Shown piece after piece: positions 36,674-41,710 of a stretch of DNA of 64,000 nt (within the stretch, counting starts at the first letter, position 1; the number at the start of each line of letters is the position of its first letter). Below the pieces are notes generated by a model. The model did no database searches. It was not told the DNA's origin and worked only from the letters and a program-made list of their open reading frames with translations. Both the position numbers and the translations under genes were made by a program. The stretch covers positions 62,001 through 126,000 of the forward strand of contig JAOAIP010000038.1 in NCBI GenBank assembly GCA_026414605.1. Reading direction: 5' to 3'. The DNA is from Bacteroidia bacterium. GTDB lineage: Bacteria; Bacteroidota; Bacteroidia; B-17B0; Aurantibacillaceae.

Positions 36674-38629
36674 TTACTTCTCTTTCTTTTGTTTAAAATG
36701 CTTTTCTTTTAGTTCCGATAAAAATTCAGCCACTTTTGGATAGTTTGGATTAATTTCCAAAAGTTTTTCATAAGAATGAATTGCCGCTGTAGTATCGCCA
36801 TTCAATATCTGTAATTCTGCTAATGCAAAATGTAAATACTCCGACCTTGGACGTTCTTGTAATTGTTCTTTGAAAAAGTTAATGCCTTTTGCATATAATT
36901 TTTCTCGTTTGCAATATTCCTTCATTACATCAAAAGGAATTTCATAAGATTTATCTTTATCTCTACGAATGGCTTTTCTAATAAATATCTCCACTGTATC
37001 ATTGTTACGATTCGTTTTAAAGTAAGAGATAGCAATATTTGTTAATACTTCTTTTCTGGTACTATCTATTTGATAAGATTTTAATAAATAGGGGATACTT
37101 GCTTCATAATTCTTTTTCCAATTCATTAATAAATAAGCGATATTGTTGTAACAACTTCCACAACTACTATCTAATTGCAAACCCCTTTGAAATTCTTCAT
37201 AAGCAATGCCTAAATATCTATGCATATCACCACTGGACAATCTCCCTGTGTTTTGCAAGTATTCTATGACAATTTGCGATCCATATAAGATGTGTAATTT
37301 CACAGATTCAGGATATTTTTTCACATCTGCTTCATAAAGGTATAATTTATACCTCCATTCATAATTCCTTTTCCATATCCAAATACTCAATACAATAAAA
37401 TAAACCATCATAAATACTTTTAATTTTGGAACATTCCACCAATTCAATTCTTTTATTTCAATTTGTTTTTTTTCTGCAATAAACTTTTGATATACCCATT
37501 CTATACAATACGCCAATATCATTGCCCACCCTACAGATGCCATAAAAACAAATCTATCCGCCACTATGCCTGGTGCTGGTTTCACAAAATTCAAAAACAT
37601 AGAAATACACACACTAAAAAACATTACTCCATACCACAAAATATCGCCTTGTTTAAATCTTTTGAAAAACAAATATGCTAATAACACAAAAGACACAATA
37701 CCAATAATGCCATAAAAATTGAAAATACTATTAAAAGGTATAACATTGTATCCATAATAACAAGACATTTTTATTGGAAAAACCAACATCCAAATATAAA
37801 AACCTAAACTCGTAAAAAGAGTAATTATTCTATACTTTAATTCATTGTGGAAATACAAAGGATTTTCAAAATAATTAAAAACTCTTTGTTTTAATTTAGT
37901 GTCTAATAATAATTTTTGACCTTTTTTTAATGCTACATACATCAAGAATAAAAGCACCACAACAAGCACAATGGTCCCCAAAATTTTTATCCATTGCTGC
38001 TGATTAAAGTTAGTTTTGTTTTTTTGAACGTAAATGAGTGGTAAAATTGCCATTAAAGGCAAAGCATCAAACTTACTGGCTAATGCAAAAAAGAAAAAGA
38101 TGGGAACTAAAATTAAATAAATCGTTTTCTTATCCTTTTGCCATTTGAGAAAATAAATGAGTACAAGCATTGAAAAAATAAAACTTAATAAAACATCTCT
38201 GTTCTTTAAACTGGCTACCACTTCGCTATGCAAAGGAATAAATGCAAATAATATCACGATCCATAAAATAGTTTGTAAGGAATAATTTTCAAACAACAAC
38301 AAAAGCATACGAAATAACAATATCAAGCACATCGCATAATAAACGATATTGAAAAAATGATGGATATGCACCTTATTGCCAAAAAACTCTACTTCTAATG
38401 CATAAGAAATTTTCACCATTGGACGATATTCGTATTCATTACCGCTTTCATCCTTTGCGTGATAACTTGTAAGTATTTTAGGAATGCCCTTTATCCCCTT
38501 TTTTGCAGGGCTTAAATCACCAACTACAAAATCATCATCCAAGGCATAATCGTTTTTTATGGTATTGCCATACAACAAAAATGCAATGGCTATAAGCAGC
38601 CAATAAATTTTTCCGTAACTTTGTTTCAT
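36674..38629 (-). CDS. Membrane glycosyltransferase-like protein with C-terminal TPRs (TMTC-like)
   Basis: A 651-residue protein with about eleven membrane helices over residues 8-400 and a periplasmic C-terminus of TPRs (residues about 440-645: YGSQIVIEYLQ, HRYLGIAYEEFQRGLQLDSS, LLKSYQIDSTRKEVLTNIAISY, ALAELQILNGDTTAAIHSYEKLLEINPNYP). The first loop carries NDYALDDDFVV, matching the acidic D-D motif of GT-C O-mannosyltransferases and their TMTC relatives. It probably transfers a polyprenyl-linked sugar to periplasmic proteins, which is inference. The ATG at 38629 (MKQSYGK) is used; the frame reaches 38656 inside the divergent gene. Only 11 bases separate the two divergent starts. Confidence 0.78.
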   Translation of the reverse strand: MKQSYGKIYWLLIAIAFLLYGNTIKNDYALDDDFVVGDLSPAKKGIKGIPKILTSYHAKDESGNEYEYRPMVKISYALEVEFFGNKVHIHHFFNIVYYAMCLILLFRMLLLLFENYSLQTILWIVILFAFIPLHSEVVASLKNRDVLLSFIFSMLVLIYFLKWQKDKKTIYLILVPIFFFFALASKFDALPLMAILPLIYVQKNKTNFNQQQWIKILGTIVLVVVLLFLMYVALKKGQKLLLDTKLKQRVFNYFENPLYFHNELKYRIITLFTSLGFYIWMLVFPIKMSCYYGYNVIPFNSIFNFYGIIGIVSFVLLAYLFFKRFKQGDILWYGVMFFSVCISMFLNFVKPAPGIVADRFVFMASVGWAMILAYCIEWVYQKFIAEKKQIEIKELNWWNVPKLKVFMMVYFIVLSIWIWKRNYEWRYKLYLYEADVKKYPESVKLHILYGSQIVIEYLQNTGRLSSGDMHRYLGIAYEEFQRGLQLDSSCGSCYNNIAYLLMNWKKNYEASIPYLLKSYQIDSTRKEVLTNIAISYFKTNRNNDTVEIFIRKAIRRDKDKSYEIPFDVMKEYCKREKLYAKGINFFKEQLQERPRSEYLHFALAELQILNGDTTAAIHSYEKLLEINPNYPKVAEFLSELKEKHFKQKKEK

Positions 38630-38640
38630 AATTTTAAGCA

Positions 38641-39627
38641 ATGCAAATAAAAGCAATTTCTACATATCTTCCTGAAAAAAAAATTACCAACGAAGAATTA
38701 GCCCATCAGTTTAATGTTTCTCCAGAAGATATTTTCAAAAAAACAGGTGTTCTTGTTCGTTGCCACACTTCTTTAAATATCAATATGCAAAAAATGGCGG
38801 AATATACAGCCAATCAATTGTTTGAACAAGATCCAGATATTCGGTCTCAAATAGATGCATTGATATTAGTAGGACACGGATTTAGTTACAAAGCCCCTAA
38901 TACTTCTGCTATAATGCAATATACTTTAAAATTATCTAAAAAATGTTTTTGCATTGATCTTCCCCACGGTTGCACAGGATACATTTATGGATTGTCCATA
39001 GCCCACTCTTTGATAAAATCTGATATTGCAAAAAATATTCTTTTATTAACTGCAGATACTCCATCTTATGGAATAAAAAAAGATGATCTTGAATTGCTTT
39101 CTATTTTTGGAGATAGTGCTACTGCTACTTTTATTACAAACTCTAATACTTCTACGTCTTTCGAAAAATTTATATTTTATACCGATGGTAGTGGATATGA
39201 TAAATTAATTGTTGAAAGAAGCGGAACTATTAATCCTGCTGACTTAGAATACTATTCTGATAAGAGCAATCCACCGCACGGTATAATGAAAATGGATGGA
39301 ACAGCCATTTTTTTAATGAGCATCAAACGTGTTCCCAACTTAATATATGAAACCTTAGAAAAAAACAATCTACAAATAGAGGACATTGATTACTTTATAT
39401 TTCATCAAGCCAATAGTTTTATGTTAGAAGTGCTTCGTAAAAAACTTAAAATCCCTGAAGATAAATTTTTTAATGATATTCGCTATACAGGAAATACCGT
39501 GTCTTCAAGCATCCCCATTGCTTTGCAACAATTGATAAAAGAAAACAAATTACAAAGAGGAATGAAATTATTATTAGCAGGATTTGGTTTAGGATACACC
39601 TTGGGGGCTACTGTGATAGAATTTTAG
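38641..39627 (+). CDS. 3-oxoacyl-ACP synthase III (KASIII/FabH-like), first of pair
   Basis: A 328-residue thiolase-fold condensing enzyme with the intact KASIII triad: Cys in DLPHGCTGYIYGL (about residue 114), His in FHQANSFMLEVL (about 257) and Asn in YTGNTVSSSIP (about 288). Such enzymes join an acyl-CoA to malonyl-ACP. The opening IKAISTYLPEKKITNEELA fits family N-termini. It is first in a four-gene operon (KASIII, ACP, KASIII, SDR). Its position next to a dedicated ACP and a reductase suggests a specialised short acyl product rather than bulk fatty acid synthesis. Confidence 0.85.
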   Translation: MQIKAISTYLPEKKITNEELAHQFNVSPEDIFKKTGVLVRCHTSLNINMQKMAEYTANQLFEQDPDIRSQIDALILVGHGFSYKAPNTSAIMQYTLKLSKKCFCIDLPHGCTGYIYGLSIAHSLIKSDIAKNILLLTADTPSYGIKKDDLELLSIFGDSATATFITNSNTSTSFEKFIFYTDGSGYDKLIVERSGTINPADLEYYSDKSNPPHGIMKMDGTAIFLMSIKRVPNLIYETLEKNNLQIEDIDYFIFHQANSFMLEVLRKKLKIPEDKFFNDIRYTGNTVSSSIPIALQQLIKENKLQRGMKLLLAGFGLGYTLGATVIEF

Positions 39628-39653
39628 TATTTTTACAGAAAAAATTTATACTT

Positions 39654-39890
39654 ATGGATATACAAGAATTTATACAACGATTAGAAAATGAATTTGAAGA
39701 TTTACCAAAAGGAACATTAAAACCTGACACCAATTATAGAGATATTCCAAATTGGAGTTCTATGCACGCTTTGATTATTATTGCTTTTGCCGACGCTCAA
39801 TTTAATGTAGAACTCACGGCTTCTGATTTGAGAAACGCCAATACCATTCAAGATTTATATGATGTTATAAAATCAAAAATGCAATCGTAA
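39654..39890 (+). CDS. Acyl carrier protein
   Basis: A 78-residue acidic four-helix carrier. The phosphopantetheine attachment serine is in NWSSMHALIIIAF (about residues 33-45), where the usual D-S-L/M is S-S-M; the following helix and the C-terminal LTASDLRNANTIQDLYDVI are typical of carriers of specialised pathways. The stop codon overlaps the start of the second KASIII gene (TAATG), so the two are translationally coupled. It is distinct from a standard FabF-linked AcpP and probably serves only this operon. Confidence 0.85.
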   Translation: MDIQEFIQRLENEFEDLPKGTLKPDTNYRDIPNWSSMHALIIIAFADAQFNVELTASDLRNANTIQDLYDVIKSKMQS

Positions 39891-40948
39891 TGGCATTAAT
39901 AAAACTTCAAAATATCTGTATTAACGCTATTAGTGCGGCTGTTCCAAAACAAACTTTTTACACAAAAGATTACACTTATATATCCGAACAAGAACGTTTA
40001 ATGTTCATCAAAAATGTTGGTATAGAACAAAGACGTGTGGCTCCATTTCACATTACAGCATCTGATCTTTGTTATCATAGTACTTTAAAACTATTAGAAG
40101 AACTGAATTGGGAAAAAGAAAGTATTGATGCCTTGATTTTTGTTACTCAGTCCCCTGATTACTTCATACCTGCGAGCAGTATTATTTTACAACACAGGTT
40201 AGGATTAAGCAAAAACACCATTGCATTTGATATTAACTTAGGTTGCAGTGGCTATGTATATGGCTTATATGTATTGGGAAGTTTGTTGCAGTCAGGACAA
40301 ATTAAACGAGGTATTTTATTAGCAGGAGATAAATCAACGATTTCTGTGTGTTTTAAAGATAAAAGTACGTATCCCTTATTTGGTGATGCAGGAAGTGCTA
40401 CGGCTTTATCTTATGATGAGTCGGCATCGCCTATTTATTTTCATCTTCAAAGTGATGGAAGCGGAGAAGATGCAATTAAAATTCCCCACGGAGGAAGCCG
40501 CTATCACATCCAACCTGATACTTTTGATGAAGTAGAAATAGAACCAGGCATTACTCGTAGTAAAAGACACTTGCAGTTGTTGGGTGCAGACATTTTCAAT
40601 TTTGCACTTAGAGAAGTTTCTCCAAATGTAGATAAATTACTTGCCTTTTCAGGCATTGACAAAGAATCTATTGATTACTTTGTATTACATCAAGCCAATT
40701 TTTTTATGAACGAAAGTGTTAGAAAAAAAATGAAAATACCTGCAGAAAAAGTTCCTTATTCTATTCAAAAATTTGGGAATACGAGTTCTGCATCCATTCC
40801 TTTGACAATAGTTACTAATTTGAGAGAACTATTAATCTCTCCTAAAAAACTTTTACTTTCCGGATTTGGTGTTGGTTTTTCTTGGGCGTCTTGTGTTTTT
40901 ACAACATCACCTTCTTTGAAAATTTCAGAGTTAATAGAAATAGATTAA
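39890..40948 (+). CDS. 3-oxoacyl-ACP synthase III (KASIII/FabH-like), second of pair
   Basis: A 352-residue condensing enzyme homologous to the first. The triad is also complete: Cys in INLGCSGYVYGLYVLGSL (about residue 117), His in VLHQANFFMNESVRKK (about 265), Asn in FGNTSSASIP (about 296). Two active-looking KASIII proteins around one ACP could perform two successive steps, use different starter acyl-CoAs, or pair as a heterodimer. The PqsB/PqsC model, where one partner lacks the cysteine, does not fit. Coupled to the ACP by a one-base overlap; the SDR follows after three bases. Confidence 0.85.
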   Translation: MALIKLQNICINAISAAVPKQTFYTKDYTYISEQERLMFIKNVGIEQRRVAPFHITASDLCYHSTLKLLEELNWEKESIDALIFVTQSPDYFIPASSIILQHRLGLSKNTIAFDINLGCSGYVYGLYVLGSLLQSGQIKRGILLAGDKSTISVCFKDKSTYPLFGDAGSATALSYDESASPIYFHLQSDGSGEDAIKIPHGGSRYHIQPDTFDEVEIEPGITRSKRHLQLLGADIFNFALREVSPNVDKLLAFSGIDKESIDYFVLHQANFFMNESVRKKMKIPAEKVPYSIQKFGNTSSASIPLTIVTNLRELLISPKKLLLSGFGVGFSWASCVFTTSPSLKISELIEID

Positions 40949-40951
40949 ACT

Positions 40952-41710
40952 ATGTTGGAATCATTAAAACATAAAACCATTCTTGTAACGGGTGCATCTT
41001 CGGGTATTGGAAGAACGACGGCCATTTTACTGAGTCTGTATTGTGATAACATTATCATTACTGCCCGAAGAGAAAAAGAGCTGAACGATACTTTGCTAAT
41101 GATGAAAAAAGGCAATCACCAAGTGATTGTTGCAGATTTAAAACAAACTTCAGAGATTGAACATTTAGCAAAAACCATCCCATCTATTGATGGATGGGCA
41201 CATTGTACGGGAAAGGTCTTGCCTGTTCCTGTCAAGTTTATTCAGCAAAAACACTATGAAGATGTTTTTCAAACCAATTATTTATCTGCAGTTTATCTTT
41301 TATCCCATTTATTAAAGTATAACAAACTTAATGCTAATTCTTCTATTGTTTTTATATCATCTATTTCTACGTTACACTCTTATTTTGGCGGGGCGTTATA
41401 CACTTCATCCAAGGCCGCCCTTGAATCTTATGCTCGTACTGTTGCTTTAGAATTAGCCCCTAAAAAAATTCGTGTCAATGTATTACAACCTGCTTTAGTC
41501 CGAACAAACATTTATGAAGATACAGTCAATGCCGCAATGAATGAAGAAGAAATAAAGAAGTATGAAAAACAGTATCCTCTTGGAATCGGCGATCCACAAG
41601 ATGTAGCAAATATGATTGTTTTTTTACTTTCTAATGCTTCTAAGTGGATGACAGGAACTTTTATCAAGATGGATGGTGGATTGACATTAGGATTCAATAA
41701 AAGTGATTAG
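40952..41710 (+). CDS. Short-chain dehydrogenase/reductase (FabG-like)
   Basis: A 252-residue classical SDR. The NAD(P)-binding motif TGASSGIGRTTAIL is at residues 13-26, an arginine-containing TARREKELN follows (suggesting NADPH), the active-site serine lies in IVFISSIS, and the Y-x-x-x-K pair in LYTSSKAALESYARTVALELAPKKIRVN. The end FIKMDGGLTLGF is typical of FabG-like reductases. In this operon it would reduce the 3-oxoacyl-ACP made by the KASIII enzymes to 3-hydroxyacyl-ACP. No dehydratase or enoyl reductase accompanies it, so a hydroxyacyl product is the simplest reading. Confidence 0.85.
   Translation: MLESLKHKTILVTGASSGIGRTTAILLSLYCDNIIITARREKELNDTLLMMKKGNHQVIVADLKQTSEIEHLAKTIPSIDGWAHCTGKVLPVPVKFIQQKHYEDVFQTNYLSAVYLLSHLLKYNKLNANSSIVFISSISTLHSYFGGALYTSSKAALESYARTVALELAPKKIRVNVLQPALVRTNIYEDTVNAAMNEEEIKKYEKQYPLGIGDPQDVANMIVFLLSNASKWMTGTFIKMDGGLTLGFNKSD

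Follow-up and report, generated by a model that had tools for sequence, protein, structure and literature searches.

A KASIII-ACP-KASIII-ketoreductase operon in a Bacteroidia genome, probably an acyl-building module for amino-sugar modification

Two condensing enzymes encoded around one carrier protein raise the question of what acyl group they build and for what acceptor. Such a set is present in the window analyzed here, a stretch of 64,000 nucleotides from a draft genome of a Bacteroidia bacterium (2.48 Mb, 96% complete; contig JAOAIP010000038.1, referred to as C58, positions 62001-126000). Its genes encode two type III 3-ketoacyl-acyl carrier protein synthases (KASIII), K1 and K2, an acyl carrier protein (ACP), and a ketoreductase of the short-chain dehydrogenase/reductase (SDR) family. 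The gene set and its motifs are conserved in relatives, and the set shows fixed linkage to, and co-occurrence with, a gene pair encoding a family 2 glycosyltransferase (GT2) and a GNAT-type acyltransferase. We consider it probable, with a rough probability of 0.6, that the operon encodes a module dedicated to acyl building: two rounds would give 3,5-dihydroxyhexanoyl-ACP, from which the GNAT would transfer the acyl group to an amino sugar, and the GT2 would load this sugar on polyprenyl phosphate.

Four open reading frames (ORFs) are found on the forward strand at positions 38641-41710. K1 (38641-39627) is a KASIII-type condensing enzyme of 328 residues, with Pfam KASIII domains at E=1.2e-31 (PF08541) and 6.6e-15. 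It is followed by the dedicated ACP (39654-39890; 78 residues; predicted 4'-phosphopantetheine site, Ser36), by K2 (39890-40948), a second KASIII-type enzyme of 352 residues (E=1.1e-26 for PF08541 and 2.8e-14), and by the SDR (40952-41710), a FabG-like ketoreductase of 252 residues (adh_short_C2, E=7.6e-41). The K1 and ACP genes are 26 nt apart, the ACP and K2 genes overlap in the ATGA manner, and 3 nt separate K2 from the SDR: this is a tight operon. Chance does not explain the arrangement, which many genomes of the class share. In the SDR, the glycine-rich motif, S139, Y150, K154, and R39 are all invariant among 17 homologues. The catalytic Cys, His, and Asn residues are kept in all 45 K1-type and all 70 K2-type sequences of an alignment that includes K1 and K2 of the window. 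A first-pass annotation of this DNA was thus right about the four coupled genes, about the full triads of both KASIIIs, and about the lack of a dehydratase, enoyl reductase, thioesterase, and acyltransferase, which holds for the cassette itself. Its view that two active KASIIIs around one ACP are unusual has to be given up: this is rather the usual arrangement of the module in these Bacteroidota.

It should be mentioned that K1 and K2 are each broken into two frames in one locus (L007:7280-9585), perhaps by sequencing errors. In a locus from the window's genus (L004:2862-4153), three ORFs lie between the K1 and ACP genes, and the same insert is present in L033. The third of these ORFs matches SecB (1e-15), and the first resembles a small HEPN-type protein by eye; judged by these similarities, the insert is possibly a toxin-antitoxin-chaperone module.

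The carrier scored 16.9 bits against Pfam PP-binding, under the cut-off of 20.8. Its AlphaFold model is confident (pLDDT 92.5) and has helix II beginning at Ser36. The best fold matches of the model are ACPs, with TM values of about 0.7-0.8; the Foldseek E values are only about 1e-3 to 1e-2, the chain being very short. In the WSSM motif, the second Ser (Ser36) is invariant in 17 homologues and Ser35 is variable. Sequence and model together predict Ser36 to be the attachment residue, in agreement with the dedicated carrier and SSM attachment motif recognized at first pass.

The cassette had been described as self-contained and standing apart. This description did not survive a comparison of neighborhoods, the check proposed at first pass for finding a conserved acyltransferase: in relatives, the operon runs on into GT2 and a PseH-like GNAT. 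Among 20 loci read from the family, 17 carry K1-ACP-K2-SDR and then GT2 and GNAT, and the order K1-ACP-K2-SDR-GT2-GNAT was found in most of 30 class-level loci with short flanks. Tandem loci were counted after deduplication and had to contain K1 as well as K2 and to leave room behind the SDR: GT2 comes next after the SDR in 36 of 39, and GNAT is present in 21 of the 23 whose room is 1.8 kb or more. The exceptions for GT2 are L003 (from the window's genus), L059, and L099, the last of which keeps GNAT without GT2. Profile searches of 295 genomes of the class gave K2 in 54, GNAT in 54, and both in 46 (p about 5e-37, with shared ancestry ignored).

The window's own genome has the pair as well. 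The GNAT and GT2 profiles (A1, E=6.2e-80; A2, E=7.9e-104) hit adjacent genes at C58:60755-62334, on the same contig and strand as the cassette, about 38 kb off, at the window edge. The GT2 gene (C58:60755-61720, forward strand) is left of the window and directly precedes the GNAT gene (C58:61717-62334, forward strand); the C-terminal part of the latter occupies positions 2-334 of the window, its N-terminus being left of it. The pair is also kept apart from the cassette in three genomes of the window's genus (G002, G012, and G019; the GT2 of G012 is cut by the contig start) and in G010, and both parts persist where they are separated. This means that the apparent isolation of the cassette is an effect of the window edge and of rearrangement. 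A KASIII operon that looked like an orphan is in this way connected with what is probably a glycan-modification pathway, present in about one sixth of the genomes sampled in the class.

The functions of the pair are given by analogy only, because the scores against PseH, ArnC, and PgfS are all below the curated cut-offs. The best curated match of the GNAT is PseH (TIGR03585; 58.0 bits, E=1.2e-15, cut-off 93.1), and its sequence matches in the PDB include the solved PseH, ranked behind spermidine N-acetyltransferases. The matches of the GT2 to ArnC (PRK10714; 133.4 bits, E=8.8e-39, cut-off 529) and to PgfS (117.9 bits, cut-off 500) cover its whole length. By this analogy, the GNAT would N-acylate a UDP-4-amino sugar, and the GT2 would load it on polyprenyl phosphate. 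A PglF-like dehydratase and five strong matches to DegT aminotransferases are present in the same genome; as far as such matches tell, these enzymes are enough in kind to make a UDP-4-amino sugar. In keeping with a sugar pathway, the K2 homologues of polysaccharide-type loci are beside a PglD-type hexapeptide acyltransferase (Pfam-confirmed in four of these loci), a DegT aminotransferase, and sometimes PglF-like genes. K2 is in polysaccharide-type loci in five (G170, G182, G241, G283, and G306) of the eight genomes that have K2 without GNAT.

Behind GNAT, many loci of the family have genes for aspartyl/asparaginyl beta-hydroxylases, three of them, Pfam-confirmed, in L053:12548-14809. A weaker homologue is near the separated GT2-GNAT pair in L140.

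In the proposed pathway, K2 would join acetyl, as the starter, to malonyl carried by the operon ACP, giving acetoacetyl-ACP, which the SDR would reduce to 3-hydroxybutyryl-ACP. K1, with its presumably larger acyl pocket, would condense this product with a second malonyl, and a second reduction by the SDR would give 3,5-dihydroxyhexanoyl-ACP. With this acyl group, the PseH-like GNAT would modify a nucleotide-linked deoxy-amino sugar at its amino group. Transfer of the acylated sugar to polyprenyl phosphate would fall to the ArnC/PgfS-like GT2, and a membrane glycosyltransferase of the GT-C type, perhaps the divergent TMTC-like protein encoded next to K1, would pass the sugar to a surface acceptor. 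In this scheme, we infer the order of condensations, the chain length, the sugar, and the acceptor; the predicted product and the partner enzymes are open to in vitro testing. A set of two KASIIIs, one ACP, and a single ketoreductase fits two rounds of condensation and reduction better than 3-hydroxybutyryl alone. The first-pass annotation had read the genes as a supply line for a short hydroxyacyl-ACP, of a kind that elsewhere feeds amino-sugar acylation, and this reading is supported. It had named 3-hydroxybutyryl as the simplest product, with two condensations as a further possibility. In Flavobacterium psychrophilum, such a gene set has been assigned to 3,5-dihydroxyhexanoyl (PMC6519341), and the simplest product is therefore probably one round short.

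The division of labor between K1 and K2 was considered from their lineages and residues. Against the curated FabH model TIGR00747 (cut-off 292.1), K1 scored 213.2 and K2 198.2, and against PRK09352 (cut-off 249) they scored 236.5 and 231.8: both are below both cut-offs. Annotation as FabH would place them in fatty acid synthesis. In a quick tree, the FabH sequences group together with good support (100). The K1 sequences make up one side of a very poorly supported branch (18), and K2 requires three changes, with L116/L117 and L115 falling outside the main K2 group. Because of this placement, K1, K2, and FabH are regarded as separate lineages and not as recent copies, the exact grouping of K1 being unsure.

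Residues are numbered by an E. coli FabH reference sequence, which equals PDB 1hn9 except for one residue. Position 87 (F87) is presumably the floor of the acyl pocket, and K214 and R249 are two further basic positions. Position 87 is Ala in K1 and Ile in K2 of the window; it is Ala, Gly, or Thr in 42 of 45 sequences of the K1 type, Leu or Ile in all 33 tandem K2 sequences listed, and mostly Leu, Ile, or Met in lone KASIIIs. From these residues we infer that K2 would prime with acetyl, giving acetoacetyl-ACP, and that K1 would extend 3-hydroxybutyryl in a second condensation; position 87 of FabH may thus be a sequence hint to tell priming from extending KASIIIs. Most single-KAS variants retain the K2 form. 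W32, R36, and R151 of E. coli FabH contact CoA (PMC4606726). In the alignment, W32, R36, R151, K214, and R249 are conserved in 20 of 20 FabH-clade proteins and are mostly changed in K1 and K2. At the positions of the Trp32/Arg151 clamp for the CoA adenine, where the FabH clade has Trp and Arg in 20 of 20, K1 of the window has Asp and Leu, and K2 has Met and Lys; W32, R151, K214, and R249 are not conserved in this K1. Ser replaces the catalytic Cys in one member of an adjacent KASIII pair in each of two polysaccharide-type loci (L116:5996 and L117:7800), and this substitution suggests a non-condensing partner.

The pair might instead perform a single condensation, the product for N-acylation being 3-hydroxybutyryl-ACP; K1 and K2 would then take different starters or work as a heterodimer. 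Relatives with a single KAS lend this doubtful but tangible alternative its weight. Such sets occur in polysaccharide-type loci (L112, L114, L115, L119, and L030) and read naturally as one condensation and one reduction. In L030, a K1-clade KAS, an ACP, and an SDR stand beside DegT, which shows that sets with K1 as the only KAS do exist. In tandem loci, however, both KASs have complete triads and belong to distinct, old lineages, and loss of the triad would be expected in a non-catalytic partner, as happened to one KAS in L116 and L117.

K1 and K2 are the only KASIII genes that a search with the C-terminal domain found in the assembly, and they might therefore replace a missing housekeeping FabH and feed ordinary fatty acid synthesis. 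This is extremely unlikely: both are outside the FabH group and are without its CoA-contact residues, and relatives have FabH plus the pair, tandem-pair genomes of the family survey usually having a further stand-alone KASIII. The plsX gene is at C36:128-1072 on the reverse strand, 127 bases from the contig start, and fabH is closely behind plsX in relatives, including L019 and L020 of the window's genus. The fabH gene of the present genome is, for this reason, most likely in an assembly gap beside plsX, and a missing FabH was rejected as the reason for the pair. A lipid or pigment with no sugar link, such as an aryl polyene or an amino-lipid, is also very unlikely as the product. Dedicated ACPs and KASs are generally known from such pathways too, but the neighbors in relatives are sugar enzymes, and genes for a dehydratase, a KAS-II pair, a thioesterase, and an ammonia lyase are lacking from the cassette. 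Among the ORFs of the cassette and its neighbors, none was read as an aryl polyene hallmark (a dehydratase, a KAS-II/CLF pair, or an ammonia lyase), and the single Ketoacyl-synt_C match of the whole genome, on another contig, counts against an aryl polyene as well.

Several points weigh against two rounds of synthesis for a sugar acyltransferase. Seven loci (L102, L104, L107, L109, L111, L113, and L118) have ACP-K2-GT2-GNAT without K1 and SDR, and therefore either do without a reductase or borrow one; L105, with only GT2 within reach, and L110, with the ACP not matched, are likely the same reduced variant. L103 has ACP-K2-SDR-GT2 without K1, a TMTC-like gene being on the other side. The reasoning from pocket residues to the roles of the KASs is indirect, being derived from the alignment and not from a pocket model, and it has exceptions: position 87 is Phe in L053 and Leu in L030 and L120, all K1-clade members, and single cases of Thr, His, and Val occur among the lone KASIIIs. 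The likeness to the F. psychrophilum genes is one of gene order and family only, these genes being known here by description. The link to the TMTC-like protein is the weakest part, since it has many paralogues and the membrane half of its model is unreliable.

The TMTC-like gene (36674-38629, reverse strand) encodes a divergent, putative GT-C type membrane glycosyltransferase with C-terminal TPR repeats (TMTC_DUF1736, 27.6 bits against a cut-off of 27; TPR matches). Its YALDD motif is invariant in six homologues. The AlphaFold model has a pLDDT of 62, with values under 50 over a large part of the membrane half, and was not used for a GT-C fold search. In the 20 family loci, the gene adjoins the cassette in the window's genus and in most of the others. 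In S. mutans, PgfS shares a transcript with the PMT-type PgfM1 (PMC5856776), and because of this the TMTC-like neighbor is suspected as the GT-C partner; by analogy, it is perhaps the user of the polyprenyl-phosphate sugar. A complete Bacteroidota system, in which a polyprenyl-phosphate amino sugar with 3,5-dihydroxyhexanoyl is attached to exported proteins by the TMTC-like GT-C enzyme, is rather improbable as a whole. If true, it would amount to glycosylation of proteins by sugars that bear a polyketide-like acyl group, widespread in Bacteroidota.

The ATG codons of the TMTC-like gene (38629, reverse strand) and of K1 (38641) are 11 nt apart. The Bacteroidota -7 promoter consensus is TAnnTTTG, and a -7-like element, TAACTTTG (38616-38623, forward strand), lies 18 nt before the K1 start, within the first codons of the TMTC-like gene. 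The same or a near-identical element is before K1 in L003, L004, L007, and L054. This resemblance weakly suggests a -7 promoter element for K1.

Compared with known systems, housekeeping FabH has the fold and the Cys-His-Asn triad in common with K1 and K2, whereas these belong to a separate lineage, with changed CoA/ACP-contact residues and a dedicated ACP. PseH, to which the GNAT is nearest, is the N-acetyltransferase of UDP-4-amino-4,6-dideoxy sugars (UDP-4-amino-4,6-dideoxy-N-acetyl-altrosamine, TIGR03585); it uses acetyl-CoA, whereas the expected donor for the GNAT is a longer acyl-ACP. The ArnC-ArnT and PgfS-PgfM1 systems combine a polyprenyl-phosphate sugar synthase with a GT-C enzyme, for which the TMTC-like TPR protein is the candidate in the window. 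We know of no acyl module in either system.

By analogy of gene content, wfpC-D-E-F of F. psychrophilum is considered to be the closest precedent of the cassette. Cisar et al. 2019 described wfpC (KAS), wfpD (ACP), wfpE (KAS), wfpF (ketoreductase), and wfpG (PglD-type acyltransferase), and assigned wfpC-G by gene content to the 3,5-dihydroxyhexanoyl group on Qui2NAc4N in a glycan of determined structure (PMC6519341; O-PS locus record MK214915). In both cases, genes for KAS, ACP, KAS, and ketoreductase stand together, in the order that the wfp gene letters suggest, and the wfp module was proposed to assemble a short acyl group, on an ACP dedicated to it, for N-acylation of UDP-Qui2NAc4N. The possibility raised at first pass that the four genes are a fixed part of a known pathway thus holds only in part, because the wfp pathway was itself predicted from gene content plus the solved glycan. 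The acyltransferases differ: that of wfp is of the PglD type within a wzy-dependent O-antigen cluster, whereas the partner in the window is a PseH-like GNAT with an ArnC/PgfS-like GT2, outside any O-antigen cluster. No PglD-type acyltransferase is next to the window cassette; the partner here and in relatives is the GNAT. A small search of titles in the open-licence literature gave no description of the six-gene operon or of a GNAT-type acyl-ACP sugar acyltransferase beyond the wfp paper. The acyl module is already known, and its fixed pairing with GT2 and GNAT, often beside a TMTC-like GT-C enzyme, looks, as far as this small search goes, like a combination not described before.

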